Under the pieces are notes generated by a model, which had not been told where the DNA came from, did not search any database, and saw nothing but the letters and a program-made list of their open reading frames with translations. 64,000 nt of DNA from Deuterostichococcus epilithicus. Taxonomy: Eukaryota; Chlorophyta; Trebouxiophyceae; Prasiolales; Stichococcaceae. Position numbers and translations under genes: made by a program. Location: assembly GCA_033439295.1 (NCBI GenBank), contig JAVTLE010000014.1, forward strand, positions 4,712,001-4,776,000, read 5' to 3'. Every line of letters starts with the position of its first letter. The first letter of the stretch is position 1. Of this stretch, positions 2,723 through 61,006 are shown piece after piece.

Positions 2723-5700
2723 ATGCAGGACGGCGGCGGCATGCAGCGGGTGAAAGTGTACCGATTGAATCAGGAGGGGATGTGGGACGACAAGGGCACG
2801 GGCTCCGTGTCCGTGGAGTACATGGAGGTGAGCAAATAGCAGTGCAGCTGTGCCCCTCTTGGGTGGGCATGCAGACGGAAGCATGCACGGCGGATCTGCC
2901 GTCCCCAACGCAAGTCTGCGCCAGGCCGCTGTTGCCTCATGCTGCGTGTGCATAACCGCTGCACCTGAATCGGCGTGCCCTGAGGGTGCCATGCATGAGG
3001 GTACCCGCGAGCTGCGCCGTGCAGCCTTGTCGGCAAGGCTGCAGCGGCAGCGTCCATGCTGCTGGCCATTTGCGCCATGCTTGGGTGCCTGCAGGACCAT
3101 GCTCTGCGGCATGGCCCTCGCTTCAACAACAGACGTCTAGGCTGTCCGGCCGCAAAGCTGCTGGATACGTCAAAGTTCAGATGGCTAGGAGGATTTACCC
3201 CGATGCCTCGTCGCTGCACAGCGCCGCTGTCATGCAGCCGCCACGGCGAGACCACTATGCACCCGCATCACCCTGAAGCCCTCTCGGCGCCTGCCTCCTG
3301 CAGCAATCGGACAGCGTGGGGCTGGTGGTCATCGGCGAGGAGGACACCCGCACGCTGCTCATCCACCGGATCTCCCGCGAGGACATCTACCAGCGCCAGG
3401 GCGGTGCGTGCCGCCGCGCCGATGCCTGTGATACAGCCCATGTGTGACTCAATCGCCTGCTGGCGCCTGCAGGGTGTTGGTGGCGTGCGTCAGGCCTTAC
3501 CGCCTGCTGCCTGCACTTATACACAGCAAGGCAGTGCAATGCCACCGGGCGTCAGCCGCTGCGTTTGCTGCATTCTGCATGAGTGCCAGTGCCCAGACAG
3601 GCGCGTGGGCGACACAAGCAAATGCACACAAAGCCGTCCCAGAATCGAGCCTCGCAGAGAATACCACCTGCTGCCGGCGCAGAGGACACGATCATCACGT
3701 GGACGGACACGGAGCTGGGCACCGACATCGCGCTGTCCTTCCAGGAGGCTGCCGGCTGCAACTTTGTCTGGTGCGCACGTGCCGCCTGACGGCTCCAGCA
3801 CCTGGTGCACACCCAGCGCTGAGAAAGCGGAGCACTGGCATGGCGGGACGACAGTGGAGTGGATGATGTCTACGCGGGTCAGCTGCTGGCACCCCCACCG
3901 CAGGGGCTTGGTGTTTTCGGTTGTGCCCGGCGGGGATCAGCCCTCGCCGACCGCGACTCATGTTGGGATTTGTTGTCACGCTCTGCAGGGAGCAGGTGCA
4001 GGAGGTGCAGGCGAGGGCAGACGGGCGGCGAGGCGGCAGCGGGGGTGCCGCAGGCGGCGGCGGCGGCGGGGAGAACGGCCTGGGCCGCTCGCGGCAGCCC
4101 GTCGATGAGTTCGACCAGCTGGGGACGTCACTGGAAGGTGGCTGTGTCTGCTGTGCCTGATGTCGCTGCAGCTGACGAAAGGGTTGAGGATGCTGCCGGG
4201 GGAAGGGCCGCTGTCCGCGATCCCAACTTTGCCGCCCAGGCAACGCCCCTGGTTGCAACTGACTGCAGGAGCCGCGCCACCTGTGGGGAACCGAGGCTGC
4301 CCTCGCACAGAGCCCTGCATGTGCGCACCGCCTCCAGACAGGGCCATTACCCTCAGCATCGCTGCTGCTCGAACTCTGCCGCAGGCGACTTTCCAGAGGC
4401 GGGCGCTACAGGGCCGGTGGACTTGCCGGCGCCGGAGATGGCGCACCTGCCCGACATTGCTCGCACGCTGCGGGAAGTGTCGCCCTTCCAGCGGGACCGT
4501 GTGGCGGAGCAGCTCATGCGGCCAGGCTACCTGAGGCGCCTGCTGGACCTCTTTCGAGTGAGCGGGGCGTCCAGTTCTGATTCTTCCTTCTGAATGTTCT
4601 GCTTCCAGCTCGGGCCCGGGAAGCAAGGGAGTAGCTGCCCTGGCGCGGCCGTGACTCGGGCCCGTGAATGAGGCAGGGAGGGCAGCGTGCCGGCGCGGCA
4701 CGAGAGGCGAGTGCTGGCGCGCTCCCGCTGGTGCGATAGCGACCTGACGAGCACCGGCGCACGCTCATGCTGTGGCTGCAGATGCCAGCGGTATCGCAAG
4801 CCTCCAGCGGCGCCTGCTTCTGGCGTCATGCAGATCTGAAACAACAAGGCCCCGTGGCGATGCGCATCAGCCCAGAACGGTTGAAAGGGGTGTTCCCCTG
4901 CACCTACTACACGCCAGACCCAGCAGCTCATAGTTTTCGGAGGTCCCTGGAGGGCGAGGGCTGCCTACCGGCGGTGCACGTGGCGGCGCACACGGCTCTG
5001 AAGCGCAGCACCCAACCCTTGACCGCTCATACTCGCATTAGCAAGATCTAGAGGACCTGGGGGACCTGGGGAGCGAGTGCGGCATTGCAGCGATGCACAT
5101 GCCGGTGCGCGGCGCCACCACCGAAACCCCTGAACGCTCTGAATCATTTTGCAGGATCTGGAGGACCTGGAGGATGAGGGCGGCCTGGCGACAATACACA
5201 CCGCGGTGCGCGGCGCCATCACCAAAACCTTTCAAAATCTAAATTCTCCGAGTTTCAACATGTAACTTCCTGAATCCCAGGACTTGGAGGACCTGGAGGA
5301 TGAGGGGGGCCTGGCGGCGATGCACACCGCGGTGCGCGGCGCCATCATGCTCAACGACACCGGGCTGCTGGAGTCGATGCTGGCGGAGCAGAACGTGATG
5401 GATGTCATCGGCGCACTCGAGTGCGATATTCAGATCTATCTTTACTTCTTGTGAGAGGAACGTGTCCGCCACAGCGCCCTCAGTTGATCCCCAGCGCTGT
5501 CACAGCTGCGCCTGAGGAAGAGCTGGCCGCAAGTAGTCTTGAGTGGCGGCGCGGGCGGCGCCATGGAGTGGCGGCTGTGCCGAGCGGATGCTGGGCTCTC
5601 GCTGCTTGACAGCCGCTTCAAAGCGCACACGATGGCCTTCACCAGACTGGTCGCTGTGTGCCACGCCACGGTGACGATAGGGACTCTGCCCGCTGCGCCT

Positions 5701-8700
5701 GTGCTGACGTGAGGAGGGCCTCAGAAGGCGTCGCCAGCAGCGCAGGCAGGGTGCTCGCTGCAGGGGCCTCCTGCAGGGTAGCAGCTGTGCCCAGTAAGCG
5801 GCACACTCGTCTCAGCATGGCGGGTGCCGCCACCCTCACAAGTCGCCACCGCGACCTGCGTAGGTACGACCCAGAGCTGCCGGCGCGGCAGAAGCACCGC
5901 GACTTCCTGCGCGAAAGGGTGGTCTTCAGGGAGGTGGTCCCCATCTCCGACACCAGCGTGCGCGCAAAGATCCACCAGACCTACCGAATGGGCTACCTCA
6001 AAGACGTCATCCTGCCGCGGTGAGTGCCAGTGCCCGGCGGCGACCGATGTCGCTCCTGCTCAGCGCCGGACAGGCAACATTCCTCTGGCGTGCTCGTGAT
6101 GCCCCAGTGCTCGTCTGTTGCGGCTCAGCGCTGTCGCCCCTGACACTCTGGCCCAGGCCCCTGCCGGACACATGTTGGGCAACGCCTGTGTTTGTTGGCG
6201 CAGCCCGCGGCGGCAGGCTGACACTTCCGTCTGACTCCCGCAGGGTGCTGGACGACGCGACCTTCGCCACGCTGTCCAGCCTGATGCTGTTCAACAACGT
6301 GGAGGTGCTGGTGTCGCTCACGAAGGACCCGCGCTTCTTCCCGGAGCTCTTCCGGCGGCTGGGCGCGGGGCCTGGTGGCGGCGGCGCGGGCGCCAAGCCC
6401 GACGCCTCCTGGGTCGACCTCGTCGCCTTCCTGCAGGTGCCTCATTGACAGCAGAGAGTCGATGGCACAGCTCTGTGGGGCGGCCGGGAGGGAACCTGCT
6501 CATGTGCCGCTGTGCGCCGGCGTCTGGCGACCGGCGTGGCTGTGCAGCACGGCAGCGGCCAGGCCAGCCCCGCCTTTTCGCACTGGCTCAGCCTGCTGGG
6601 TGTGTCTGTCTCCCCGGCCTGCATTCTTGGCCTGCCTTCCCGGCTTGATCTGCTGCCTGAAACCTCAGGGTTTTCGCTTGGCAAACTGGCTCCTCGGTGT
6701 GCCGTACACCCTTGACCCTGAATTGTGCCGCCGCAGGAGCTCTGCGGGCTTGCAAAGCACCTACAGGTGGGCGCGCGGACCAGCCTCCTCAACAAGCTCG
6801 CCGACCTGGGCCTGTTCAAGGTGTGCGCTGCGTCTCCCGGCCCTGATCCGAAAGCTGCCTTCCCGCTTGTGCGGGGTTTTCTGACCCCGGTGGCGCCACC
6901 CGCTGCTTGTGATGAATACTCGGAGCCTCCGCCGGCTGTCCAGTGCTGGGTTCTGCTGCCCCTGCTGCACACCTCTGCCGCCGAGGCTAGCCTGTCGCAG
7001 GGTGCGGCACGGGTGAACCCTTGCGGCGGCGCGCAAGGGGGGCAACAGCTGCGAACGGGGGCGTGCCGCGGCTGTCTGCTGCATGGCCTGGTCCTGAGCT
7101 TGTGGCTCAGCGTAAGGTATCGAAACCTCATCTGGTGTCCCACACCAGGTCATGACGCCGGCAATGGAGAAGGGCGGATGACGGCTGCGGCTGCGCACAT
7201 GCACCATGTTGCTGGCGGCCCGCCACATCTTGGATCCATGCGTGCAAACCTATCAAAATGGCTGTATGCTTGGATACCAGGTCATGACGGCGGCGATGGA
7301 GAGGGGGGACGACGTGCTGCGGCTGCGCGCTTGCGATGTGCTGCTGGCGGCGGGGCAGCACGACCCGCAGCCGCTGCGCGCCTTCATCGAGGGACCCGGC
7401 GCCGGCGCCGACGGCCGGCTGCTGGGCACCCTCATTGCGACGCTCGGCACGCCCAACGCCAACGGTCTGCAGGAGCAGGTGGGCGCTGGATGTCCAGAAG
7501 GCGCCAGAGGGTCTTGTGTCGGATCGCCTAAGCCCTAGACCCACCTTTTGGGGCCAGTCTGACCAGCCAGCTGCCGCGCGGGTCGCTCTTCCGTGCGCTC
7601 CGGTGGTGATGCCCGGCCTCAGACGAGCCCTACCAGTTGCAGCCTGGCGCGCTGCAGCTGCTGCGAAGGTGCCGCAGGCTTAAACTTACATCGCATGACG
7701 CGAGCAGGGGCAGCAAGCCCCTGCGGAAAAGTCCACGAGCCCCTGCACAGAAAATTCAGAAGAAGACCTTCATTGCTGTCCTGGCGCTGCGGCTGCTGCT
7801 GCTGGATCGCGACATGCCTGAGCGGACCCGTGGAGCTGAAGGAAGTCTTGTACCCAGCCCCGTGAATCCAGCTTGGACGAAGTCGGCGCCTGCTGCCCAG
7901 GCGCTGGTGGTCCTGCGGCTGAGTCGGGACATATCAAGAGGGGCCGTGCTGAACCCAGGTTGTTTCCAACCAAATGCACGTGACGCCAACATGCACCCAC
8001 GGTGATGTCAGCCATGCCGCCGCCCGCAGGCGCTGGACCTGCTGCGGCTGCTGCTGGACCCAGACATGATGGAGGGGCCCGTGGAGAAGAACTCCTTCCT
8101 CGACCTGTTCTACGCGCACCACATGGCTCGCATCCTGGACCTGCTGACAGCCGGCGGCGCCGCCAACGAGGTCAGTTTGCAGATCGCATCCATCCTCTCA
8201 ACCTTCCAAACCCTAAACCTCAACCCAAACCATACGCGCACCACATGGCCCGCATCCCGGACCTGTCGACAGCCAGCGGCGCCACCAACGAGGTCTGTCG
8301 CACCGCAGATCGCCCTGCGAACCGCATCCATTCTCAACCCGCTGTCTGTCCTTTCCCTGCTGATCATTGCGCACCACACAGCGCGCATTCCGATACTGCT
8401 GACAGCCAGCGGCGCCGCCAATGGGGTGAGCTGAGCCCCGAGGGGCACAGGGAGCCGGTGCACCTTCCTTCCTTCCTTCCTTCCAAAAGGGCATGCGCCG
8501 ACGAGTCGCGCCGCTGCCGTGCAGTCGACAGCCCGCTGCAGCAGATCACTTGTCATCCCTGTTGAAACAGGAGGAGGGCGAAATGCTGGCAGGCACGCCC
8601 GGTGTTGGTGCTAACCCTGCTGTGCTCCTGTGTGTTCTATCCTGTCCCTGTGGCATTTTTCCTACTTCCAACTAGGAGTAGGCATGAGGAGGGCGGCAGA

Positions 8701-9620
8701 TCGTGCTGGCATGCTGGTGCTGGTGCCGCTGTCGCCATGTATCAAGCCTGATCTTGGTCTGCCAATTATAACGGGAGGGCAGCAAGCACGCGGACACGCC
8801 GGTGCCAATGCTGGAGCCGCTGTGCCGCCACGTGTCCAGCCATTCTTCACCGAGGAATCATCTCCACTTACCTGAGCAGGAGGAGGGCGGCAAACCCGCG
8901 GCCACGCTGGTGCTGGTGCTGGAACTGCTGTCCTTTTGTGTGGGGCGGCACGCGTACCGTATAAAGTACTACATACTGCGCAACACGTGCGTCGACGCGG
9001 CGCTGGCGCTGCTGCGGCGGCGGGAGGCGTGGCTTGGCATCGCAGCCATCCGCTTCCTGCGCACCTGTGTCGGCTTGAAGGTGGGCATGAGCGCTACACC
9101 GAACCGAGAAGCGGTTGAGAGGTTGCGGTCGCCGGGTCTTAGCATCGTCGCCGGTTGCAGCGCACTTGCGCCGGCTTCGAGGTGGCACCGGAAGCGGTGC
9201 GGGAGCACACGCCGGCCAAGAGAGAAACCCTTGCACGGGACAGCAGCAGTGGACGGGGAGCATGGCCTGTCACTCCTGAGCGGCCCGCCCGCTCGGCATT
9301 TGGCGGGCGGCACCCACCGCACCCGCAGATGCGGGTAGCAGCTGGACATGTTACCAGCGGCGACGTGGCGACTGGAGGGCCTGCTGTGCCGACTCTGCAT
9401 GATGCACATGCATCCTTCCTTGAGCTGTGGCATCCTCGCGACCAACCACCGCCATTCCTTGTAGTGTCCTGGAGCATTGATTCGATGTTTCCATCCTGCA
9501 GGACGAGTTCTACAATCGGTACTTGGTGCGCAACCACTTGTTTGACCCCATCATCGCGGCCTTCCTGGCCAATGGCCCCCGCTACAACCTGCTGAACAGG
9601 TGCGCCGCTGCCGCCGCTGC

Positions 9621-9656
<36 letters not shown>

Positions 9657-13258: not shown

Positions 13259-13370
13259 TCATGCCATTACGGCAGACACATCCGGCACATGGATGTTTCG
13301 CAGCAGCCGGAAGGCGGGCCCGTACTGCAGACCCGAGTCGTAGAGCTGCTGATACACCTGCACCGTATCC
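13259..13370 (-). pseudogene. Orphan polyketide-synthase dehydratase-like exon
   Basis: On the minus strand, after a ttgttgtgcag acceptor, the frame reads VQVYQQLYDSGLQYGPAFRL and continues LRNIH before a gtgccg donor-like site. The GLQYGPAFR string is characteristic of the dehydratase domain of type I polyketide and animal-type fatty acid synthases. If not spliced it stops at 13259. No other PKS exon was found on either side. It is downstream, on the same strand, of the 116-aa gene at 13546-14031, but the phases do not join. Most likely a relic or shuffled exon of a large algal PKS gene; a missed exon of a chimeric gene is possible. Confidence 0.45.
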
Positions 13371-13545
13371 CTGCACAACAACGCAAGCAGGGTTCAACCT
13401 GGAGTGAGCGAATCCTGCTGCACGTACAATCTTAGATGTCAGCCGTCCCAGCACTGCACCAGCTGCGCACGCGGCTCAGGAGCATCCGGGATGATTGAGC
13501 ATCGATCAGTTGCGATGCTGCGATGAACATTGAGAACAAAACTAG

Positions 13546-14585: not shown

Positions 14586-17500
14586 ATGCTGGCACAGCAG
14601 CCGGCCAGCGCCCAGCAGCTGGCTGCCTGCAGTGCGATTGGAAGCCATACTAATGCTCCCAGGCCGGCACCCCACAGACATGTTGCTCTGAAACACTGGT
14701 ATGCTGCGCTTCCTGCTGCCGTGCGCCGCATGCTTGATCTTCTGCGGCAATCCGGCATGCGAAATGTTGAAGCAGCCAGAGATAGGACAGCAAGCGTGGA
14801 ACCAGTGTCGGGCGGCAAGTGACATTTGAAGAGTGCATGCGCAGGCCACACGCCCGACGCTGCTTGCCGGGCGCCGCGGTGCTTGCGAGCGCCGCGCTGC
14901 CGCAGGCGGCGGCCGTGGCAGCTGTAGACATGGCGTCTGCTGCCCTGGACGCCGCTGCAGCAGCGCAGGACGCGCTCGGCGGCGCCAACGTCCCTGGCGC
15001 CGCCACAGCGGCGCCGCAGCTGGCCGCCGCGGCCAGCGGCTGGCACCCGCAGCCGCTGTGGCAGCTGGCGGATGCAGCAAGCGCTGCAGGTGATGCCACA
15101 GCTGCAGCGGCCGACGCGGCCGCCAAGCAGGACTGGCTGACGCCGGTGGCAGACGGCCTGGAAACGGTGCTGCGGACGCTGCAGGGGGGGCTGGAGTCTG
15201 TGCACGTGCCCTACAGCTTCGGCTGGTCCATCATCGCGCTCACCGCGCTGGTCAAGCTTGCCACCTTCCCATTCACCAAGATCCAGGTGCACTGAGATTA
15301 CACCCGGCAAGACACTAGGCATATCCTGTTGCCTTCTGTGTGTTGCGCAGCATATGCTCGTCGGTGTCCACCAAGGCCGGGCTCCGCCGCGCATGCTGCG
15401 GGTGCAGGAGACGTGCGCCTCACTTTGTGTCCACTGCACCGACGAGGTACAGCTGCTCGGAATGCCAGCTGCAGAGCCTGAACGTGCCGGCGCGCAAGCA
15501 GCAGATGTGAACATGCTCACCAGCGGGGTACTGCAGGTTTCAGGCAAGAGATGCAGGCGATGTTTGCCGGTTGCTGTGCAGGTGGAGTCCAGCCTTAATG
15601 TGCAGGCGCTGAAGCCGCAAACGGATCTCATCAAGCGGCGGTACGGAACCGACAAGGAGCGGATCCAGCGGGAGACGTCCGCGCTGTACGAAAAGGCGGG
15701 CGTCAACCCCCTGGCGGGTGAGCACCCCGCGCCATGCTGGTCGTGATCTGGTCGTGCCGTGCAGCTGCTGGCGGACCTGCTGTGAGGACGCCAGCCGGCT
15801 GCGTGGCATGTCAGGCCGGCCGGCCGGAGGCTTTCCCAGACGACGACCTGACCGGGGCCACTCCGCACAAGCGGACCGTCTGGGGCCGTCGTCAGGCATG
15901 GCGCCCAGCAGCCGCGCCGCATTCGCCACATCGCCGCCGACGCTGAGCAGTGCACGCACCCCCCCTCCCCGCAGGCTGCCTGCCGACGCTGGCGACCATC
16001 CCGGTGTTCTGGGGCCTGTTCCGCACGCTGACCAACGTCGCGGCGTCTGGCTCCCTGACGGAGGGCTTCTACTTCGTCCCCTCTCTGGCGGGGCCCACCC
16101 AGCGGGGTGTGCGCCCACTCTCAACCTCTGGGCGTGAATGTTTGCCCGTGACTGCATGGTTCTGGAAATGGCCGCCTTTCCATTGCCTGCCGCCTGCGTC
16201 TCTGCGGGTGCCCGCATCTGTCAGCCAAACATGCCAATGCTGCTGGGTTGTCTAGGCTCCTCAGCTGGCTGCCTGCCGAGGCGCTCCTCAGCTGGCTGCC
16301 TGCCGAGGCGCTCAAACTGGAAGCCTTCAAACTGCAGGCGGCGGCATCACATGGCTGTACCCGTTCATCGATGGCACACCGCCCATCGGCTGGGACGAGG
16401 CATCCAGGCATGCGCCACTCGAGCCCTTATCCAACGAGACTCTGCAGTCTACTACGCGCCAGCTCTGCCACCCGCACAATATTCCCAGCAGCTGCCTGTC
16501 TACGTCTGCATGGTTGCCGGGTCGGGCATGGCTCCATCCTGTCACGGCGCGGCAGCCTTTGGTGCATCGCCGGCGGCGTTGCCAGCGTGCCACACCGTCC
16601 GCCCCACAAACCCTAAACCCCGCCACTCCGGCTGCACTCTCTGGCAGGTAGCCCATGTCGCAGTTGAGCGCTCCAGACTGTGCTCAAAACCCCGAAATCC
16701 TACCCCTAACCCTAATCTGTGGGATGCGACAGGTACCTGGTGCTGCCTGTGCTGCTGGTGGCCTGCCAGTATGTCAGCACCGCCATCATCACGCCGCCCA
16801 AAGACCCAAAGGAGAAGGAGGAGGAGAACGCGACAGCACAGGTAAGGGGCTACTCCCGAATTTTGGGCATTATGCAGAGGACGTGTGCAAATCGAATCGC
16901 TGCTTGTAAGCTGTCGCAGCCGCCACTGTGAGCGGCCACTGCGCCGACGCACGGTGATCAAATGGCACACGTTCTCGCTGAAGCGTCTGAAGCATTCTGT
17001 GGAGCATCCAAAATTTGCGACCTGCGACATGCTGCCTTCACACCCACCGTGCACCCACCGTGGGTGCTGATCAAGGCACTGTCGCTGACGGTGGGCTGGT
17101 CCTTTCAGTGCAGCTCAGGAACGGACAAAAACAAGTCAAATTTGAGTGTGTCCAAATGCCTCCGCAGCTGCTAATCAAGGCGTTGCCGCTCATGGTGGGC
17201 TGGTTCTCGCTGAACGTGCCGTCGGGGCTGGGCCTGTACTACCTGTCCAACACGCTGCTCACCACGGGGCAGCAGGTCTTCCTGCGCAAGTTCAGCGGTG
17301 GGTACCTGATGTTTTTATTCCAGACTCAAAGTTCTGCTGGAGCCTCAACCTGTGCATACCGCGATTGAAGGCTCTGCAAGAGTTCCGAGGCACAGGCCAG
17401 GGCTGCGCCGCACATTGCCGCCTGGCCGCAACACCGCTGCAGCATGCCGCACGCTTTGATGTGCTGGAACCGAGTCCGTTGTTGTGACCGTGCAGGCGCG

Positions 17501-18642: not shown

Positions 18643-18647
18643 TGTAA
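18643..18647 (+). terminator. Candidate TGTAA poly(A) signal for ALB3
   Basis: TGTAA(C), the usual polyadenylation signal of green algae, occurs about 447 nt after the ALB3 stop. Confidence 0.4.
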
Positions 18648-19438: not shown

Positions 19439-24313
<4,875 letters not shown>

Positions 24314-42479: not shown

Positions 42480-45400
42480 ATGGCGGCGGCCCGGAGCATG
42501 AGATGCACGGCAGTACCCACGCTGAGCCCCCACCGGTGCGGCATGATAGCTTTCCAGCGCCGTCTAGTCTGTTCCAGTCATGGAGACACCTGCAACACGG
42601 GCAAATCTGCCTGAAATGAATTCCAGATACCTGCCAGGCGACCCTGGTGTCACAGCGCTACCGGTGCGCCCCACTAGGTGCGTCAGAAAATACAGAAAGA
42701 AGTCAATCGGGGCTGGACCTCTCCCCTGCAGGCTCGCGGCCGCGCCCTTCCAGCACGCCCGGCCGAGGCAGGCAGCTGGCCGAGGCAGGCGGCGCGCTGC
42801 GCCGATCGCCGCCTGGCCGCAGCTCGCAGTACTGGCGGACGCTTCAGGCGCCCTGCCACAGCTGAGCGCGACTGCCGACAATGCCGGCGCCGCCACGGCG
42901 CAGCAGGGCGGTGCGGCGCAGAAGGCAGCAGCTTGCTCGGGACTCGGCTGCGCACAGGTGCACTGGGGACCCGCGGGGTGAAGTACCCTCCGGCTGCTGT
43001 GCAGTTGGCAGTCTTAGCATGCGGATGGCTTCCAGGATTCGCCAGCCACGTTGCTCGAAAGAAAGCCAGTGCCAGTCTTGTGCAACAGATCTATATGTGC
43101 GCATGGCGCCATATCGGCAGACAGTGCGTTTGACGCCTCTGTAAGCGTGATGACGACATGATATTGCCGCAGCGGCCGCTGTAGGCATAGCCACCATGCC
43201 TGGACTGGGACCGCAAACACCATGCATTGGCACGGCAGCGCCTCGCAATGCCGCTTTCGTCGGCAGTGCAGTCTGCACATGTGGGCATGCAGCCTGCTGG
43301 TCGCCAAGCCTCCGGCTGACATCAGGGACCGCTGCTGGCGCCTCAGAAGGACGCCTGCACACATGTGCGCTTCGCTTGTGCCACCATTTGCTCATGCTGC
43401 GGCTCCACATCCTGCAAGCCAGTGATTGTCTTCGATCGTCTAACAAACAGGACGTGCTGGACTCTGTGGCACGGCCCTTTGCGGGCCTGACGGAGGCGCT
43501 GCCGGCGGGGTCGCTGCTGGGCGGCGCGGCGGCGCTCGCGGTTGCGGGCGGCCTCGCAGCCTGGCGTTTTGCGGTGTACAGCCGCCGCGAGTACATTGTG
43601 GCCGCCATGCTGCGCAAGTACGTCCCCAGAGGTGAGGTGACCTTCACATACCTGAGGTCGATATGCTGGTCATGTTGCTGTGGGCCATGTTGCAATGCGG
43701 GCACGAGCAGCACCGGCGGTGCATGCCCTCTGTAGAAAGCTGGCGCGGCGTCTGTGGTGGCCGAAGGCAGCACAGCTCCGTCATCCGGTGGTCACCGGGA
43801 AAGAGATACACCTACCTTGGTCGCATTGACGAGAGGCGCTGAGCGAGATGCTGCAACCCGCGCAGCTGCACACCGCGCAGTCGCCGAAACAAACCCTGTG
43901 CTGCACGTTGTATGAATAGCCCGAAAAGGTGTTACCGAAGCCTGCTGATACATGTCTTGCCGTTGCGTGCAGCAGGTGCCAGAGGCATGCAGACCTGTTG
44001 GATCCTTAGAAGCGCCATACCAATGCATATTCCTATCCATGCGCACAGGCGGCGCAAGGGTGATGCAAATTAATGGCACCACCCGGGATGTGTTCTACTA
44101 CCCAACCGGCACCGTGTCCATCCGCGTCGTGGGTTCCGACATCAGGCCGGGTGAGGCATGTCCCTGCGCCAGCAGCAGTTCTCTTCCATCCAGTTCTTTG
44201 TTGTTACGGAGGCGCATGGCACGCGGCGGGCTGTCTTGTTGAGGGATCCTGCGCCGGGGTGGAAGGGTGCGCTGCACTCGTCCGGAGTGCTTGTCTTCCT
44301 TTTGACTGATCTGCTGAATCAGGTCACCTGGCCTGAAGTGCCTCTCGACTTCCAGAACTCGCCCTACATGGAGGGCTGCTGCAGCGCGCACCGCATGCAT
44401 CGCCGGCCTGTACAACTCCGGGCAGGGCTGTGAGGGTTGCGCGGCAGGGTGCAGACTGCCTGCTGCCAGGCTGCATCAGCCGGCTCATCAAGTTGGTGAG
44501 GCGTCGACCTCCTGCTACGGCAGGTCTGATGGAGCAGGCGGGCGCATCAGCGGGCGTGCCCGTGGAGGCACGGAAGCAGTCGCCCACCGACCTCTCCTTC
44601 CAGGTGAGATTGGCTTGTATATAACAAACACACTTGTATGAGCGCTGTGTCGTGCTTACCTGCGCCGTCTGTTCTGCCTCAGTGGGCGCTGCTAGGCATG
44701 AGTGTCATGCCCTGTTGCTGCTGCTTCTGCCAGATGGCATCTGCTGCGAGGTCGTTTGAGCATTGTTCGTGGTGTCCACAACACCTAGGCACAGCCGCAC
44801 ACCCAGCCACTGCATGAGATGCCTCTGCAGCTTCATACATCAGGGCCTAATGTTCTTCCAACGCCTACTCAGGGCACCGGCAGCTTGGACGCGGTGGTGG
44901 CGTTCAATGCGCTGGCGTCGGTCGGCGACACCGGCGCGGCGGCCTACCTGGCAGAGGTGGCCCGCGTTCTGAAGCCGGGAGCGCCATTCGTGTTCGTCGA
45001 CCGAGGTGGGTCCCAAGACCATTAAGCCCGCCGGCGCAGGCTCGGCAAGCAGCAATATGCCAACATCAACCAGCTCTGAAGGCGCGCACTATGACGGTCA
45101 AAGGCTCGGAAGGACTCTGCGTGCAGGAGCACGCCGCTGAGGTTTTGGCGCAGGTTGAGGTCGTGACTGTTACATGCGGCGCACGCTTATCGAATCTCAT
45201 GTTCAGTCTCAATCGACAAAACATGATTTGCGCAGTGGCGGGCGCCGGCGTCGCGGCAGTCGCGCAGCCGCTGGTGGGCGGCATATTCAATTGCATAGGT
45301 GAGCCCCTTGTCGCGATGCTGTCAACCACAACAGGCTGCATGCCCTGCACAAACAGTTCTAAGAGCTCGACAGCTGCTTCCTGTTTCATAAAGCGCTACG

Positions 45401-49438: not shown

Positions 49439-52400
49439 TCATCGGCCGCCGCCGCCCATGCCCGGCAGCTGCAGCCGATCCCGTATCTGCGTGATGGCCG
49501 TACCCAGCGGGCTGCCAGCGCCAACCGCCGCCTGCGGGCAGGGCAACAGGCTCAGCGCAGGAGAACATGGGAAGGCATGTTATGAAGGGCCTCATCGACA
49601 ACCCAGGGCCTCCACACAATGAACCGGTGCCTGAGCGGTGACCCGCCTCAGGAGTAGGTGCTCCGGTGCAGGTGGTGCAGCAGGAGCACCCTGAGCCCTC
49701 AGTGTCTTACAGAGCCGCAGAACGCCACTGCCAGCACCCGGCCGGCGCAGCATCAGCGCACAGCGCCTGGCGGTCTGGCGCAAGGCTGGCACAGGCGGGC
49801 TCCGTGCCGCAAATCAGGGTTTGGGTTTTGAGTTTCAGGTTTGGGCTTTGAGGTTTCAGAGAATGGGATGTTACTGTTGACAGGAGTGGAGAAGAACCTG
49901 GATGCGGCCCAGGAGCTCGCCGTCTCGCGCCGCCGCCGCCGCCTCAGCAGCCTCGGCGAACAGCCCGGAAGCCGCGTACTCCTCGGCCTTGCGCTTGCCG
50001 TTGGGGAGCCGCGCGATGAACCTGCGCGGTGGCAGGGCCCCTGTTTGACTGGCCGCAGTTCCACGGCTCACCTCCCACGGCTCGGCGCTGCACGGCCCAG
50101 CTCGATGCAGCGTCACAAGTCTGCATGGTGCTGGTGGCAGCGCTGGCGTCCAGAGGTGTCGAGCAGGCGTGCCCAGGATGCCCCACGCATTTGCGTCAGC
50201 GAACCGGCTGCGCCGCCGCACACTGCGGCGTGCTGCCTCTGCGCCATCAACAAGGGTCCCTGCCGTTTATACGCCTGAACGTTGCCCCTGCCGCACACTC
50301 TAAACAATTGAGGATGTCGGCTGAGCCTCCAGTCATTCCAGTGGCAGCGCCCTGCCCATCTTGAACTGCACGTGAGGTAGTGTTTCTGGGGTTTAGGAGT
50401 TGGGATTTCAGGGTTTCTGGGCACCTGGCCACGACGCCCTGCGGCGCGCCCTGCACACGCGCCGCAGCGATGAAGGGCTCCAGTCCCACGGGAGACTTTT
50501 TCTCGGTCGCAAAGGCGTCCAGCGCCTCCCACTGCTGCTCCGCCGCCAGTGCGTTGATCTGCAGCGCCCAGCAATAAACAGGGGTTGATACAAGGGCAAG
50601 GCGACGGTCCTTCCGCACCAGAGGCGTGCAGCGCCTCCCACGGCGAAACGCTGCCACAGCCTGAACCTGCAGGCGGCAGACGGGAACGCTGGTGTTTGGT
50701 CGTTCGACAGTGAGCAGCCATCATGCAATTCCCGCTGCCGACCGCCGCCAGCGCCTGCGTCTGCATCAAGTTGCTGCAGTTCCGCTGCATAGCCAGCCTG
50801 CGGCGACATCGAGGCCCTCCCTGAAGCCCTGCAAGCGGCGGCCGGCAATGCGGAGCTCGGACACCCTCGCAGTGGTGTGACTACTTTTGCCCAGCCCCAA
50901 CACCCACACTTCTTCTGCACACAGGAGCATCACCTTGATACCCCAGAAGCGGCGGTCGGCGACGCGGAACTCGGACCGCACCCGCACCGCTGCGCGCTCG
51001 TTGCCCAGCCGCACCGCCTGCCGCAGCGTGCCCGCCACGCTCAGCCCCACGAACGCCAGCTGGCCGGTCTCCACCTCCAGCTCCGCCTGCACGCGGCGCA
51101 GGCGCGCAAACTCCGCCGTCGCGCGTGCCTGAAACGTGTGCTCCTTGCTCTGCACGGCAAGAAGGAAACGTCTTCAGGCGTCCAGCCGCCTGCTCCACTT
51201 GAAAGGTGTGCACCTTGCTCTGCACGGAAACAAGGAGAGCACATCTTCAGGTGTCCAGCCGCCAGCTGCGCCTGCACGCAGCGCAGGCACTCACATTTTG
51301 CGCTCACGCACGCCTGTAAGGCAATCTCCTGTCCTTGTTGCTTTTTAAAACAGAACAAAGACGATTCCGTGTGGCGATCGGTTCCCTCAGTGTGCATGCA
51401 GAAAAGGCCCGCATACTGTGGCTTCGCGGGAGCCTGCAGAGTGTGCTGTTTCCTCTGCGTGGCAGTGAACACTGCTTCGTATGGCGAGCAAGGCCTGGAC
51501 TGCATGCTTGTCACGCAAAAGTCACCATCATGCGTGCCTGAGCGGCAGCGCGCTAACTGGCACACCCACAGCTGTTCTGCTGCCTGAAAGGATGGCTTCA
51601 GGAGTGGATGACAAGGCTTGAGGCGGACCAATTCTGGGGCTTCCCACACCTGGCTGTAGAGCTCGGCCGCGCGCTCCAGCAGCTTCACGGTGGCCGCCAC
51701 GCTGGGGCCGCCGGCACTGCCGGGGCTGCCGATGCCGCCGCTGCCGCCACTTCCGCCGCTTCCTGCAGCCTGCAGTGCCACCGCCTCGCGCAGCCGCAGG
51801 TCGCCAACGGCTGCCAGGCGGCCGCCCGCCGTCAGGAGCTGCTCCAGCAGCTCCGGCTCCTGCGGCAGAAGTTGTGAGATATCTCGCTGGAGCATTCCTC
51901 AGAACATGGCATTGATGAGCACTGCTAGCAGTGATGTCCGCAACAAGCTCCAGGTCAGCAGCTGCTCCTGGAATCAGTCGAGGCCAGGTGCACCGGTGGT
52001 TGACTGCATTTTCACGATGCTGAGCATCCCCCAATCTCGTCAAGAAACCACTTCTACTGGCATGTGGCACACATAACCACCGGCTGCCAGCTACACCCGC
52101 GTTCACTTACTGCTGCAGCAGCGCCTTGAATTTCCAATCCTGCAGAGCCACCGATCCTAAGTCTGGTTCTGGTTCTGTCTGCTCTGCTGCCTTTGCCTGG
52201 CACTCGAAGCCTAGCAGAATGTGCCGCAGCTTTGTGTAGTAGCTGCCCACTGCTAGATACGAAAAGGCGCTGGGCCTTGCAGCATGCACCAGCTGCATAT
52301 GGGATTGTTCTGCCCAGCAGCCCCATAGCAGCCGCACCGTTCAGCGCCGTGCGCAGCATGGACACTCAAAACTCCCCCACTGCTCAAGTGCTGCCGGGGC

Positions 52401-55400
52401 GCACACCCTCGCCGGGGTTTGTGCACAAGCCGACCCCCCGCGGGCGCCGCTGTGCTTCACCGGACAGTCGATTGTCGTCTGCAACAAGGCGTGTCTGGGA
52501 CTAGCGTCTCGTCCCCACCTGCGCCGCGCAGTAGGCCTCGAACAGGACGCGTGCCGCCGGCCGCGCCGCAAGCGCCGCCAGGAAGTCGGGCAGCGGCCGC
52601 GTCCGGAAGGCAGCAAACAGCGCCAGGTGCGCCAGGTCCGGGTCGCCGCAGGCGAGCGCCGCGTCGAGAGCGCGGTCCACCTCGCCCAGCGCCAGCAGCA
52701 GCGGCACCTGGGGTCCACAACAGAACGGAAAACATGAAGGGCTAAGGACACTGCATCTACTTGCATTTGGGGTCGCCCACGCCCAGTGCTAGCAGCAGCG
52801 GCACCTGGGGCAGCAAGGGGTGACACCTGCTGTGGATGGAAGATCTTAGGCTGCTTTTCTAGCCGTCATGCTGGGTCGCCAGATGGCAGCGCTTCGTCGA
52901 GAGCACTTACGGCCCGTTCCCTGCATCAATAGCAATGACACCTGAAGACTGCAGCCGAACAGACATCGAGAGTTTACATGCAAGTGTACATATCGGGTTG
53001 CCTAACGTCACGCTGCAGCGAGGCTCCAGTCATCCTGGCCCATTGCCTGCAGCGCCGGCGGCGGCAACCCGTCAATGAGGCGAGCGGCACTCTCGCCCAC
53101 GTGCGTGACTGCAGGAAGTTTTGGAACGTTGCATGCGCTGAACCTCCAAGCCCTAGATCTGGGGACAGGCCAAAGCATGGGCCCCAGAGGTTGGTTTGCC
53201 GGCATGCTTGCCCGGCGCCCCACAAAGTTACAGCGACAGGCTTGTACGACACCATCAAATGGGGATGCGGAAAGCTACTGGTGGTCGTGCGAACAGCAGC
53301 CTCAGGCTAATGACCATGCTGATCTTTTGTTTATTCCGCTTGTCAGGACATAATCATGATGTACGATCGTGGAGGCGGCTTCGAGCCGAGACCCTTCCGC
53401 GTTTCGATCCCTGCTCATCAGCAGTGAACGTGCCCAGACCTGGCTTGGCTCGAAGTCGCACAGCCCAAACCCATCCCAGCGTGTGCTATTACTGCTGTTG
53501 CGAGGTTCCTCTCAAGATTGCGGGTTTGCTGTTGGGTTTCATATGTCGGTAAACATGGCTCAACTTTCGCACACATCAGCCAGCGGCTGCTGCTGTCATC
53601 ACCAGCGGCACACTCAGCCATCTCAGCTGGAAAGCTGGATCACTTTTCCCCACCTGCTCGCCGGCTCGCGTCTCGTGCTCCAGCAGCAGCGTCGCCAGCC
53701 GGGGCCTGCCCAGCGCCTGCGCGTGCGCCGCGATCGCCGCATATCGCACGCCGCCGCCGCCGCCGCCCTGCCCCGCCAGCTTGGCGCGCAGCTCGTCGCG
53801 CAGCTCCTCGTCCGGCGTCGCGCCGGCTGCGCCGACCTTTGCGCACGCCCAGTCCACCAGCACCTGCGGGAGACGTGTGGGTTTTCGAGGTGTTACAGTG
53901 GCGATGTTGCCAGACACCAAAGAGCAGCTCCTCGTCAGAAGTGGGGTCGGCCGCCCCGGCCTTCGCACGCGCCCAGTCCACCAGCACCTGGGGGAGACGT
54001 GAGGGTTTGGCCAGGTGTTGCAGTGGCGATGTTGTCAGACGCCACAAAGCAACTCCTCATCGAAAGTGGAGTCGGCCGCCCCAGCTCTCGCGCACGCCCA
54101 GTCCATCAGTATCTGGAGACGTATGCGTTTGCCAGGTGTTGCGGTGGTGATACTGTCAGACGCCATAAAGCAGTTCCTCATCGGAAGTGGAGTCGGCCGC
54201 CCCAGCTTTTGCGGACGCCCAGTCCACCGTCACCTGCGGTTGAGCAGAAATCCACATAAGACAAACCCTGAGGATGGGTGGCAGGGTGATCCGGCACAGG
54301 CAGCAGCTACTCGTCGGAGGAGCGGCCACTGTGCCAACTTCTGCACACGCCCAGTCGACCAGCACCTGCAAATGATGCAGGTCCATCCGATTTCGACCAT
54401 GCTCACATGCTCGTCCGGCACTGCACCAGCGGCGCCGTCTATGACACAGGCGCAGTTCATGAGCAGTGAGCAGTGGCGCAATGCGACTTGAGCATGCTAT
54501 TGAGCAGCAGATTGATTGGCTGAAAGGTATCAGCTCCGCGTCAGAACCAGCATCCCAATGCCGATTGTCGTTCCAGTCGCATTGCATCAGGCTGGCGGTT
54601 TGTCCAAGGGATCAGGGCCGGCAGTGAGGGCAGAGGCTGTGAGCGCCCCTCAGCTTCGAGGAAGCGGGGCCAGCAAAACACGACGACTCCTGCCTCAAAA
54701 GTCTGGCGTCGCTCGCAGCCCTTGGCTCAGGCAGCATCTAGCACACGATTTGGACACGAGCGCAGTTTGAGTGCTGCCACGATCTGGCCAGCCAGCTTGC
54801 AAACCGGACATGGGATGGGGCTTGGATCCAAGCTGAAAAGTGGCAGGGACCAGGGCTGGCCGGGCTCAAACTGTCCACAGCTGCGCTTTGCAGCCATGGC
54901 CCAGGGAGAATCTGATGTGACCCTGACCTGACCCTGACCTGTCATCCAACAGGCACCAGGGACCGGCTGAGGCACACTCGGACTGAGTTGCGGGCTCATA
55001 CCGCCCGCAGACCGGGCGTGCTCGGAGTCGACGCCGAGGCAGCGGCAGATGGCGGCAGCACAGACGGACGGAACAAGGCCGTAAGCCCTGAAGCAAGGCC
55101 GACGCAAGTCGCACTGGAAAGGCGGGAACGCCTTGCCGGCAGCAGAGGGTTGGACCCCAGACCGAGACCGTACTTACACCATAGGTAGGCACCTGCTCGG
55201 CGCCGATGCCCAGCTGGCGGCAGATGCGCGCCGCCAGTAGGTGGTGCCGCGCCGCCACAAGCCGCGCCACCGCACCCTGTAGCGAGACCGCCTCCAGCTG
55301 CGCCGCCGTCAGCGGGATGCCCACCTGTGGCGCGGGCGCAGCTTTCAGATAGTGTTGCATGGTCTCCCTCAGATTTTGATGCCGGACAGGTCAGACGTCC

Positions 55401-58400
55401 AACCACTCGGACCGTGCCATGCCCGGCGACGGGGCCGCAGGCGCACTGGACGCTGAGTGCCTGCGCACAAGCTGCCTCCTAGCATTGAATGGCAAATACG
55501 CAAATGCTGCGTACTGTGCAGCAATCACGGCCGTCGCCATCGATGAGCCAGCCGCCTGCAATGCGCCACATCCTTGCGGGCACGACATGCCATCGAAGCG
55601 ACTGCCAGCAATTGGTGCACAGTGGCATGGCCTCCCAAGGAGAGCAATTCAAATGTGCTGCGCTGCCGGAGGGCATGCACAGAGTCTGCTTATGCCGACA
55701 CAGCAGCCGACACAGCATAAGATGTTGGCAACTACAAACACAAGCAAACCTGCAATGGGGCCGGCAATGTGTCTGCAGCCAGGCACGGCGCTGCAATGAA
55801 AGGAGGACAAAACAGATAGGCATTGATCACCAATGAACGGGTTGAGGGCAATGCGCATCTTGCATGCAATGACATGATACTCTATACCTGTTTACCTAGA
55901 TTAAGAGACCGAAAGAAGCGCACCGCCAGGTCCCGCATGGCATTCAAGACCCGCAGCTTGCGCACAACGCTGACGATGCCATCGCGGGGGAAGGCGCCCG
56001 CCGGCACAAAGGCCCGCCCGTAGCACGCCGCCTGCAGCCGTGCAGGATGGAGCATGCCGAGTCACGGGAAGCCAGGAGGCCGAAAACATGTCAGAGGAGC
56101 GACTGAGGTCTGGGACGGGGCAGTCCAGCTTTCGGGCAGCATCCCAATTCGGGCCACCAGTTCACACCGAGCACCACCAGCAGCAAAATCGGTTGGTGTC
56201 ATCTGCGCGCAACACAGCGCGAGGACGATGGGCTCGCACGCTCTGTTTGCGGCCACTCCCGAGTCCCCATGGTGACTCTAGATGTCGCAAACATGCAGCC
56301 GTTCACGTCGAGGTCACCCCTTGAGCCACGCTGCCGGCCGGTCGGGATGTGCTTCACCGCCGCTGCCGCAGCGTACGCTAGCACCAGGGGGAGTCCGGCA
56401 GAGCTCAAAGCCAGGGCCCCAGCCCAGCTCACAACATTGAGGCTCTTCGAATTGCTAGTGCGCTTGGAGATACGATTGATTTTTCAGGCATGCAGACGTG
56501 CGCCGCCTGGCTCCGCTGCTGCCGTCGCAGCGAAAGTCGCAGTCTTGAGACCGTCTGGAATCCAGTGCACCTCGGTAGTGCATTTCTTCGCCTCCCAGGC
56601 AGAAGAGGCTTGCTTGGCCCATGCCGGTATCTTTTCTTTGTTGATTGCTCTTTCTGACAACCCACCTTGAGCAGTGCAGCCTGGCGGACGGGGTCCAGCT
56701 CTGCCGCTGCCGCAGCGGCGCATGTCGCAACCGCCGCCGGCAGCTCCGCCGCGATGGACCGCAGCAGGCCGTCCGCGCGGGGGTTCTGGGCGTCAAACAA
56801 CTCCCGCGCATCGTACAGGGTCGCGCCTGCACTTGCAAGCGCTCGGGACTTGAGGCACCGCGGCAGCAGGCATGCTTGCGGCAGGCGATCAGGGTCGCAC
56901 GGCGAGCAGAGGCACCGTCCCTGCCAGGCTGTGCTGTGTCTGCCAGTGTTGGACAGTGTGTGGGGAGGACAGAAGACGCTCCCGCTGTACCCTGGGTGTC
57001 CCTTGATGGCACAGCTCCCCACTGGCACAGCTGCTGTGGAAGCCCGAGCCATCGAGGTTGGCTGCAAATGCAGAGCGTCGCTGCAACTGCCAGGGCACGA
57101 CAACCGTTTGACCAACCTGCCGTGCTTGTGCGCGATGACAGGGCGACGCTTCCTGCGCTCACAGGCCCTGTACAGGTCTCAAAAGTGGTTCCTGAGACTC
57201 CTCATGCCGCCCCGGCCCCCAGCGCTGCCAAAGCAGCACATGCGCTGTTCTCAAACCCAGCACCACAAACCCTCACCTGGCGCTGTGGAACCCACCCGGA
57301 AGACCTCCGCCAGCGGCTCTGGCACCCGCCGCAGCAGCTCGTGCCGCTCGTCAGCCAGGATGCGGACGCCGTCCAGTTCGGGTACCAACCGCACCGGCGG
57401 CGAGATGGGCAGCTCCACCGTGTCGCCCAGCGGGCCCACCATCAGCAGGCTGTCCTCGTCCTGGGCGGCACGGAGCCCCGCAGAGTCAGCAGGTGGCAGC
57501 GACAATGCAAGTGTACATCTGTTTGATTTCACAAGATAACGCTGGCCAGGCAGGTGGGGAGGTGCGCCAGCTGCAAGGTAGCAGACGCAGCTGCGGTGCC
57601 AAGCACGGTCCTGGTCCTGCGGCCCCCGCAAGCCGGCACGGTATCTAGAAGGTTCGCCCATTACCTTGCACAGCGCAGCTGTCTCTGCACTTGCGACATT
57701 CCTAGCCAAGGCAAGCTGCCAGCATGGACTCCAGGGGCTGTTGGGCGAGGCTGTGGCCAGCAACATCGCTATGCTGCTGCTGGGCACACGTGCGTATAAA
57801 TGCCCGATTGCGGGGCGCAGTCAGTTTCTCGCAACATGTGCAAGCCGCCGCGCCCTCAACCCGCAGAGCATGCGCTCAAAGGCGGACTCCGACATCTTGA
57901 TGCGCAGCATGGTCGCGGCAGTGCCGTCTGGCATTAGCTCCGCATGCAGCGGCTGCACGAGCATGTCAAGACAGAGTGGGAGCAATCAGTTTGACACTGT
58001 CCACCTGGAGGGACCGTCACTTGGAGAGCGCACCTGCCAGGTGACTACCAGCGAGTCCGAGCCACACCAGGCCAGCTGCTCCGGGGCACGCCCTGCAGCC
58101 AGAAACACGATGCGGTGAGCGGTAGGTCGAAACCGGCGTGTCAGGGCTTGGGTCGCACAGCATGCCGAGCCGTATGCCCAGCTGACATCTCCACATGGCG
58201 GGCAGACTCAGGCTGTCGATCTGTTCGGGACAGCCGCGGCTGCGCCAAGCGCTGGCTCGATTTGCCCGGTGCCGGGTCCTCACTGCTCGTTTGACCGATG
58301 TCACTGTCTGCCACACTTGCCAAGGCCAGGCAACCTTGACCCCCACGATATTGCAAACGGCTTCACATGTCAGCCAACGAACAATTCCACTCGCAACTCG

Positions 58401-61006
58401 CAAGCAAGATAGCGAACATGCGGTGACGCACCCGCCGAGCCGGTGTTGAACTCGCTGAGCACGCGTCCAAAGTCGGCTGTCCACACCACCAGGCGCCCAG
58501 AGGCCGCATAGCCCGCCACAAAGCGGCCGTCAGGCGACGCTGCCAGGCGCAGCAGCGGCCCCGCGGCCAGACCCTGATCCACTGCCGAGTCCGCATCCAC
58601 GACCCACACGCTGTCGCCGGCTGCAACAACCACCTGCAGTACACAGGACTGGGAGGAGTGGTGTCGACTGTGCGCGAGTGAGCCAGTCAGGCAGGTGGGC
58701 GGCGGAGTGAACATGCCAAGCTAGGGACTGCACACCAGGGGTGGCCTTTTGCATTGGTGCAGAGACAGCGCCTGATGGTGAAGGCTGCCGGCAGTCAGTG
58801 CTGCAAGCAAGTGCTCCAACGCGCAAACTGCACGGCTGGCATGGTGATGCTGTGATGTGTCTGCTAGTCAGTTGCTCAGTTCTGCTTTGCTTTGCTTCCG
58901 TCGCGGCCAGGAGGGTAGCCTTCGGCTCTGCAGATGTGAGTTTGGATCAAAGCGCAGGAGACCTGCTGGCAGACCTGCCTCGGTATAGCAGGGGCGCAGC
59001 CGGCAAGCTCGTGGCGGCTGTTGGTGCACCCTGAGATGGCAATCTGGGACAAACACCCAGACAGACGCCATCTCTCAGCGAACAATTCGCAGCAGGTTCT
59101 CGAGGGATAGTTGGGACAGCACGGAGCGCCAGGCAGTTAATTTACATCCAGCCCAGCACCCAGCCCTGTGGCTCGGCGCCAGGACTCGTTTCGAGGCAGC
59201 AAGACGGCGGCTGGTGCCGCGGCGGGACTGCCTGTTGGCACTCGGCACCCACTCGCTGCCGTAAACAAACAGTTGAAACCCATCTCCCAGAAACCCCCCA
59301 ACCCCACCTCCAGGCAGCCGGAGGGCGACTGGTGCGGCGGCAGCACCGCCCAGCAGTGCGGCGCGCCCGGCCACGCGCCCGATGCCAGCAGCTGCGGCCG
59401 CGGCGCTGCCTCCGCCAAGTCCTCCACCACCCAGAAGGTGCCCGCCGCCTGTGGAAACACTCATGAAACCCTGCTCAGACAGCCGGACGTGATGCTGAGA
59501 CACCCGTGTTTACAACGGCGGCGCCGCCTCGGTCGGTTCATCCACCAAACAGCATGCGCGTGTGCTGCCTGGCGAGGCAGACATCGGCATCTTGAGCCTT
59601 TTCTGAGACGGACAATGCCACTAAAAGCAGCAGATGCACAGTCACCTGCAGCTGCTGCCTGACTCTCCTTCTAAGCAGGTTCACTATCGGCCCTAAAGCG
59701 CCCGCTGCCCTTGATGCGCATGCATGCGACCACTTCAGGCTGTCGAGCCTTACACTCGTGGCCTTGCCATCGCCACAGCTGCTGCCACGCACACCAAGAA
59801 CAGGGCTTTGCACAGCTCACCGTCTGGGCGACAAGCACGTTGTTGGCAATGACCGCCGCCACGACGCCCTCTGCCTTGGCGGCAGCGCCCAGCGAGAAGT
59901 GCCGCGGCTGCCGCTGCCCAAACATGCTGTAGGTGTGCACCTACCGCACAGCGGCACTTGGAGGTCAGTTGTTCGACCCAAACGTTCGAGGAGTCTGCAA
60001 GTCGATGGCGCTGTCTCGCAAGAGGATGCCAGTCAGCCGAACATTCGTATAATTGACTGCCACAGTGCCAGACTGTCACAGTGCCGAATTGTGCAACACA
60101 GCAAGCAGGGCGCGCAGGAACACTGACTCGCTGATGGTGCGCTGGTGAATGTCGCTGCAGCAGGGTGGCTACCTAGGCCAAGATGTTATCAACACGACGC
60201 GGAGCTCGCAATGATCCATGGGGTTGAAGGTATGCACCTCGCCACTCTCCTCAAGCACCAGCAGCTGCTGCGCGTCCGACCAGCCCAGCGCCGCAATGCG
60301 GCCGCGATCCCAGGAGAATGCGCCCAATGGTGTGCCTGCGCAGTGCAGCACCCAACTCCTCCGCTGCCCCGGTGGTGTCTTTGGCAGCTTCCCTGGCTGT
60401 TGGCCGTCAGTACAGCTAATGGCATCGCCAAGCTGCTTAGGCTGCCGAAGCCTTTGTCGGCAGGGCGGCAAGGAGCAAGCCCTGCATCTCACCTGCCGCT
60501 GTGTATGTCCGGACCGCAGGCACGGCAGTGGAGGTGCTGCCTGCCGCCCCCAGCAGCACCGGCTTGTTCTCATCACGCACCGTCGCAATAGGGCCGCCGA
60601 ACGGCGCACACGCCACCCTGTGCAGGAAAAAACGCCTGCGTCAAAATAGCGCGTCACGCATGTGATACATAGGTGGACGTCACAGGCGTGGCGGGCAGCC
60701 AAGATGCAGGCAGTGCAAGTGCCCAACCGCTGGCAGAGGTTTGGGGGCACCGCCGGCAGTCAGCTGTAGCCTGGCGCCTGACATCTGACCATGGCGCTGC
60801 TCCCGTGGCAGGGAGTCGACGGCTCGCACATGGCGTTGGAGCACAACCATGCCGTGGGGATAAGGTACGGCGGAAACCTGTGCATAGTGCGCCAGGCACG
60901 GCAGTGCCATCTCACCTGAGGTATTCCAGGCGCACATCGCCCCAAGCCATAGCATACAGTTCATGACGCGCGTAGAAGCGGTCGCCACACAGCTCCCAGT
61001 CGCCCA
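49439..61006 (-). CDS. VPS16: Vacuolar protein sorting-associated protein 16 (VPS16), start exon missing
   Basis: Core subunit of the HOPS/CORVET tethering complexes on endosome and vacuole membranes. Exons in order: 60916-61006, 60493-60617, 60238-60335, 59821-59940, 59308-59448, 58432-58633, 58034-58092, 57277-57460, 56666-56826, 55924-56031, 55193-55324, 53654-53863, 52519-52707, 52111-52139 (uncertain), 51650-51859, 50934-51149, 50425-50558, 49898-50021, 49439-49531. About 875 aa are covered (family about 840). The N-terminal beta-propeller shows FYARHELYAMAW, ACAPFGGPIATVRD, RIAALGWSDAQQLL and LVPELDGVRIL. The C-terminal Vps16 helical domain shows LRVLNAMRDL, VGIPLTAAQLE, LLLEHETRAGEQ, GDPDLAHLALF, FRVADRRFWGIK, EKKSPVGLEPFI and LPNGKRKAEEYA. 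The first listed exon starts mid-codon, so the initiator lies upstream, probably before 61260. One short exon (DWKFKALLQQ) does not close in phase. Confidence 0.92.
50790..50875 (-). repeat. Degenerate copy of the 3' edge of VPS16 exon 50934-51149
   Basis: The plus-strand block ccctgaagccctgcaagcgg, then cggccggcaatgcggagctcgg, matches the exon end (cttgataccccagaagcggc, then ggtcggcgacgcggaactcgg at 50934-50975). It lies about 110 nt on the donor side. Confidence 0.75.
51160..51320 (-). repeat. Degenerate copies of the 5' edge of VPS16 exon 50934-51149
   Basis: About 51200-51235 (tgaaaggtgtgcaccttgct, then ctgcacggaaacaagga) repeats the exon border at 51131-51172 (tgaaacgtgtgctccttgct, then ctgcacggcaagaagga). 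About 51255-51318 (cgcctgcacgcagcgcaggc, then cacgcacgcctg) repeats the more internal part of the exon (cgcctgcacgcggcgcaggc, then cgcgcgtgcctg). Both lie on the acceptor side. Confidence 0.8.
52758..52820 (-). repeat. Copy of the 5' edge of VPS16 exon 52519-52707
   Basis: cgcccagtgctagcagcagc followed by ggcacctggggc at about 52780-52811 matches the exon border cgcccagcgccagcagcagc, ggcacctggggtc at 52683-52716. The acceptor (cccag on the minus strand) is retained. Confidence 0.8.
53925..54375 (-). repeat. Array of four copies of the 5' edge of VPS16 exon 53654-53863
   Basis: Copies at about 53925-54000, 54045-54115, 54165-54240 and 54303-54370 repeat the exon border at about 53800-53880, with a period near 115-130 nt. 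Each has the plus-strand cgcccagtccaccagcacct-type core, so the acceptor side is present. Minus-strand translations stay open: VLVDWARAKAGAADPTSDEE for the first, then MDWACARAGAADSTFDEELL, VTVDWASAKAGAADSTSDEE and VLVDWACAEVGT, against VLVDWACAKVGAAGATPDEE in the real exon. Confidence 0.9.

Follow-up and report, generated by a model that had tools for sequence, protein, structure and literature searches.

Degenerate copies of exon edges in the adjoining introns of a green alga: probable remnants of short tandem duplications across exon-intron borders

The window, the whole 64-kb stretch of Deuterostichococcus epilithicus DNA analysed here, corresponds to positions 4,712,001-4,776,000 of contig C12 (4,837,475 bases) in an assembly of 46.8 Mb and 21 contigs. 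Gene models were obtained with an HMM gene finder trained on the sequence itself, which gave 42 genes with 598 exons and learned sharp splice motifs (donor NAG/GTGNG, acceptor YGCAG/G). Models of the window that lie far above the Pfam cut-offs are those of PP4R3, a protein kinase, the N and C regions of Vps16 and 60KD_IMP (ALB3/Oxa1-type), and the kinase is GSK3 according to a PDB match; no second full-length copy of the GSK3 stretch (window 20100-21400) was found in the assembly. The models are ab initio and contain known errors: one GSK3 exon extends into an intron, and the model of a coiled-coil gene is, judged by eye, probably fused with a neighbouring paralogue. The window also holds an inverted pair, at 26577-28838 (minus strand) and 42727-45385 (plus strand), with 70-74% identity in three pieces. 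These are two paralogues of one gene, which looks methyltransferase-like by eye; the left one looks decayed and seems to be fused to the coiled-coil gene in the model.

Introns of these genes hold partial, degenerate copies of the edge of a neighbouring exon, which are called echoes here. The PP4R3 gene model (2723-12477, plus strand; HMM model with Pfam PP4R3 at 4e-116 over the first 763 residues) has the most echoes in the window. Two acceptor-side echoes (5052-5120 and 5152-5214), part of which the gene finder called as exon, belong to the exon starting at 5281; a further one at 7142-7209, with 88% identity, lies 132 nt upstream of the exon starting at 7281, and another at 7775-7841 (79%) lies about 252 nt upstream of the exon starting at 8030. 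The clearest case is the intron at 8171-8879, in which the upstream exon, ending at 8170, is represented by two donor-side echoes at 8233-8298 (89%) and 8369-8430 (81%; the gene finder called an exon at 8309-8425), and the downstream exon, starting at 8880, by three acceptor-side echoes at 8563-8631, 8682-8726 and 8774-8823. Also on the plus strand, the ALB3 introns 15287-15581 and 16842-17167 each contain an acceptor-side echo, at 15463-15528 (83%, score 130) and 17056-17119 (76%, score 149), respectively. On the minus strand, GSK3 intron 21874-22256 contains an acceptor-side echo at 21927-21995 (74%, score 169), and exon 35684-35846 of the coiled-coil gene has two donor-side echoes at 35548-35602 and 35422-35474 (offsets 132 and 264). 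VPS16, likewise on the minus strand, has one echo per side in intron 50559-50933 (acceptor, 50611-50675, 77%; donor, 50817-50877, 81%), an acceptor-side echo at 52769-52810 (offset 97, 86%) in intron 52708-53653, a ladder of acceptor-side copies with a period of about 121-133 nt at 53924-54369 beside exon 53654-53863, and donor-side echoes at 56316-56378 (78%) and 59191-59250 (75%) in introns 56032-56665 and 58634-59307. The initial annotation had described such copies, from inspection by eye, in these five genes.

Edge queries consisting of 60 nt of exon and 8 nt of intron were scored against the rest of the intron, with a score of at least 120 taken as positive, and the counts refer to introns of at least 100 nt that are free of N. 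Over 503 introns, positives made up 6.9% of 467 tests with the own donor edge and 8.3% of 469 with the own acceptor edge, as against 0.42% of 4,513 tests with non-adjacent donor edges and 0.70% of 4,597 with non-adjacent acceptor edges; the reverse complements of the own edges gave 0.2% (donor) and 0.9% (acceptor). Edges from the wrong side were positive in only 1.0% and 0.75% of tests (401 each), which upholds the earlier claim that donor copies lie downstream and acceptor copies upstream of the parent exon, and edges one exon farther away in 0.5% of 394 and 1.3% of 397. In the window, where eight HMM exons (echoes or spurious micro-exons) had been taken out of the models by hand, echoes were found in 21 of 101 introns, and they are local, in the same orientation, on both intron sides and on both strands, as the initial annotation had described them. 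Own edges were positive in 23 of 195 cases here, and equally good alignments were rare among the non-adjacent pairings (2 of 1,296).

A self-BLAST search of the window (E<1e-3) returned 19 direct pairs, whose partners are all at most 1 kb apart, and three inverted matches, all of them fragments of a single pair of paralogues separated by 14-18 kb; no local inverted pair was found in this search. In a larger search, which covered 264 kb of C12 and 50 kb of C14 (1.50-1.55 Mb), there were 85 near direct pairs, 6 near inverted pairs and 1 far-control pair at 44 bits or more. Some of the 85 come from one 22-kb coding-like array, and without it 62 direct pairs of at least 40 bits are obtained. This degenerate tandem repeat array (C12:4,611,900-4,634,200, L021-L024), situated about 100 kb to the left of the window, has about 65-87% identity, many periods and long open frames, and is perhaps one giant repetitive protein gene; it was left out of training and of later counts.

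The observation of exon-edge copies within adjoining introns is thereby confirmed. It is barely credible that they represent chance similarity of GC-rich sequence or an artefact of the gene models: the GC content is about 63% and the ab initio models have their known errors, but every control is at or near background, the annotation-free repeat searches agree, and the copies, with their identity of about 80%, are not duplicates made by the assembly. Chance and composition are ruled out by the non-adjacent, wrong-side and reverse-complement controls. Introner-like or otherwise transposed elements were also rejected, as no family common to unrelated introns was found in the regions searched (1 far pair at 44 bits or more, and non-adjacent edges at background).

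The anatomy of the copies was determined on 58-59 pairs, drawn from overlapping searches with differing scoring. When the query holds exon sequence only, the copy runs exactly to the splice junction in 37 of 58 cases and comes within 3 nt of it in 53, in accordance with the proposal that the copies include the junction. Offsets are mostly 110-140 nt or multiples thereof (110-139 nt in 26/59 pairs). Two or more copies are present at 24 of the 91 junctions with a copy (exon-only queries with a score of at least 112, a threshold without a separate control), often forming regular ladders, for example with offsets of 132/264, 138/275, 129/252/381 and 144/288. In 59 pairs the median length of the exon part of the unit is 60 nt, with quartiles of 46 and 65, and the whole exon is reached by 4 of 59 extensions. 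An exon part of more than 87 nt is found in 1/59 pairs, compared with 31% in a simulation of random placement with the same detection (P ~1e-8), which was run for donor sides and exons of at least 110 nt, 5 of the 59 observed exons being shorter than 88 nt. Either the units centre on the junction or, as the simpler reading, those dominated by exon would be lost through mis-splicing.

Tandem arrays with units of about 120 nt that hold both exon edge and intron are located at L032-L036, at C14:1,545,370-1,545,754 and at window positions 53800-54369, and contain the best-kept whole units. At A:60411-60692 (C12:4,572,411-4,572,692), where no exon is predicted, there is a direct pair with an offset of 177 and about 62/65 identical positions (by eye), a recent duplication that apparently lies outside exons.

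The echoes are probably what is left of tandem duplications of short units, for the most part about 110-140 nt long (around 125 nt), that straddled exon-intron borders; duplication of this type, already suggested by the initial annotation, is the best explanation of copies that are local, direct and end at the junction. A duplication straddling the border would leave the exon edge, together with its splice site, in duplicate. If the original junction (first donor or last acceptor) continued to be spliced, the protein would be preserved, and the other copy would turn into intron, add one unit of length and decay without constraint, the extra copy being tolerated because splicing discards it. 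If the protein must remain intact, duplication across the junction would also account for the position of donor copies downstream and acceptor copies upstream of the exon. Repeated events, or slippage inside an existing array, could generate ladders of two to four copies with near-constant spacing, and the DNA events behind the duplication may have been slippage, paired nicks or break repair. We infer that tandem duplication was the event in every case and that splicing acted as the filter. The duplication model does not account for the narrow unit size or for the rarity of units whose exon part exceeds 87 nt.

If the duplicated unit covers the junction, a copy of its intron half is expected as well. 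Such an intron half can be made out in 14 of 43 pairs, among them 4/4 with an exon-echo divergence below 0.1 (the array intron B:45412 is counted twice), and inspection by eye puts the identity of both halves at about 90% on the acceptor side of A:49949-50621; most older pairs show no recognisable intron half. Two free intron halves are expected to diverge twice as fast as an echo and a constrained exon, and in 22 of the 27 pairs with a divergence below 0.2 the similarity of the intron halves falls short of that in a simulation of twofold decay. When echoes of one junction are compared with each other, the flanks are at background in 12/12 pairs with a divergence below 0.3; among all 22 such pairs, 15 are below the simulation and 2 above background. 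A simulation with 1.5-fold faster intron decay and longer indels comes near these counts, as a fit rather than a finding, and the selection of better-preserved copies adds to the apparent loss of intron halves. The persistence of exon-derived halves over intron-derived halves exceeds the expectation from simple decay, an excess for which plain tandem duplication does not account. A preference for junctions, once drawn from the scarcity of intron-only duplications (a signal excess of 0.66% in intron windows vs 7.0% at exon edges), was dropped: these values are near the prediction from intron-half loss, and since intron halves are recognisable only in a minority of pairs, the low intron-window signal is close to expectation and needs no junction preference.

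The longer survival of the exon-derived halves would suit a junction-directed process of copying or homogenisation, for example via unspliced RNA or through conversion of echoes by the exon, that creates or renews the exon edge and the splice site alone. The concentration of the exon part at 46-65 nt, with just the one pair above 87 nt, points in the same direction, as does the order of the copies within ladders: identity had been said to fall with distance from the exon, a claim that fails, for the copy closest to the exon shows the highest identity in 12 of 24 ladders where chance would give 11.3; such an outcome is expected if copies are refreshed. However, the intron half is common to 14/43 pairs and to 4/4 of the youngest, the constant spacing of the ladders suits whole units, and a modest difference in rate is nearly enough. 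Mismatches in the copies are not clustered and there are therefore no patchy conversion tracts, although conversion of whole tracts is still compatible with this pattern. Such junction-directed copying is considered rather unlikely. Doubtful as well is a process centred on the splice junction, in which the junction itself would fix the unit at some 60 nt each of exon and intron, exon halves would later be refreshed from, or held to, the exon, and introns of this lineage would grow by about 125 nt per step, with exon edges as the material. Tandem duplication across the border is retained as the preferred explanation in what follows.

Copies decay like non-coding DNA. Mismatches between echo and exon amount to 0.172, 0.171 and 0.218 at the three codon positions, gaps ignore the frame, and the frame is broken by a gap or a stop in 54 of 58 copies. 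The acceptor AG is retained in 20 of 29 copies, which is about the neutral expectation at 18% divergence, and the donor GT in 9 of 24, a lower value with several cases ambiguous through gaps; the notion that echoes supply spare splice sites found no support in these counts, which give no sign of retention. Pseudo-exons maintained by selection, whether as spare splice sites, as decoys or as mutually exclusive exons, are very improbable for this material. The retained AG dinucleotides, the calling of some echoes as exons by the gene finder and the seemingly better preservation of exon-derived halves than of their flanks could be taken as signs of such a function, but AG retention is at the neutral rate, each copy is partial (median 60 nt of exon) with one splice site, the frame is nearly always broken, the mismatches are almost even over codon positions and just 9/24 donors keep GT. 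Duplicated or mutually exclusive exons were rejected, because the copies are partial, with 4/59 reaching the whole exon, and have a broken frame in 54/58.

When the copies are sorted by divergence (0-0.06, to 0.12, to 0.18, to 0.24, and above), the classes contain 2, 6, 18, 22 and 10 copies. Uniform ages would predict 10.4, 13.1, 15.8, 14.5 and 4.2, and a single age of 0.19 would predict 0.3, 5.1, 25.1, 23.7 and 3.8; neither model fits fully. The process had been thought to be continuous, but young copies are too scarce for this (2 and 6 vs 10.4 and 13.1 expected), and their shortage favours an older wave over a steady process.

The feature is real and extends beyond the window, but it is uneven. 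Echoes are present in 12/159 and 23/116 introns of neighbouring C12 stretches and in 4/90 introns of C14, where 5 of 174 edges were positive against 9 of 1,080 controls. Local direct pairs number 18 in the 64 kb of the window, 23 in the preceding 78 kb, 17 in the 100 kb further left and 4 in the 50 kb of C14; twelve small loci (36.6 kb, L011, L037 and L038 not included) yielded 2 direct pairs and 0 inverted pairs. Echo density differs between genes too (permutation P 0.0185). The even, genome-wide spread that had been supposed is at odds with the difference between C14 (5/174 edges) and the window (23/195), and, with about 350 kb of the 46.8-Mb assembly covered in total, genome-wide occurrence is unproven. 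As to the related claim that duplication has lengthened introns, echo-bearing introns are longer (median 329 vs 217.5 nt), but the comparison is weak because the mask, which uses 120-nt edges at a score of 112, overcalls (283/503 introns are flagged) and longer introns give more chance matches.

The kind of event is a known one. In the Rogers model of intron gain, as outlined in PMC4974935, the new intron is about one unit long, has the copies at its ends and leaves the protein intact through splicing. Tandem duplication and a protein preserved by splicing are common to this model and to the echoes, but the echo unit spans an existing junction and needs no new intron. It is extremely unlikely that the echoes arose by gain of introns from a duplicated AGGT-bearing exon segment, with later extension. 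The event would be of the same kind and the unit has the size of short introns, but the model predicts a new intron of about one unit whose acceptor end holds a copy of the donor edge, whereas the echoes sit inside introns that are typically several units long and have the splice-site type of their parent. Intron gain of the AGGT type was rejected on the basis of this splice-site type and of copies at about 110-140 nt or multiples in mostly longer introns, a judgement on the set as a whole.

The closest published case found concerns one potato gene, that for RdRp, where an intron arose anew when a tandem duplication crossed the border between intron and exon (Ma, Lan and Niu, 2016; PMC4974935). 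As in the echoes, the unit crosses the boundary and the splice signals are inherited from the parent copy; unlike the echoes, which are decayed and lengthen many introns, on both sides and with ladders, it concerns one gene, a recent event and a new intron (PMC4974935). New here are the unusual density, the occurrence on both intron sides and the ladders built of regular units. In the green lineage, short direct tandem duplications may have an origin of the kind described in 2016 work that PMC8153287 and PMC8316200 cite. Long introns in compact genomes, with median lengths of 198-343 nt, are known from core-Reinhardtinia algae (Craig et al., 2021; PMC8226300); that account treats intron length and conservation, and exon-edge copies are unmentioned in the parts consulted. 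No report of the exon-edge echo pattern in an alga was found in a full-text literature search, with subscription papers mostly outside its range.

Little is understood of how introns lengthen in compact genomes if transposons are not involved. If recognisable remains of the adjoining exon edges occur in about one in five introns of a region, short tandem duplication that passes the filter of splicing would add intron DNA in measurable amounts, and the exon, being under selection, would serve as a reference for events that soon become invisible within introns. Echoes that retain splice motifs are also a hazard for annotation, some of them having been taken for exons by the gene finder. In keeping with a green alga, as is the ALB3/Oxa1-type gene of the window, an rbcL gene lies on C21, and a fragment of a fatty-acid photodecarboxylase matches PDB 5ncc, the Chlorella variabilis enzyme.
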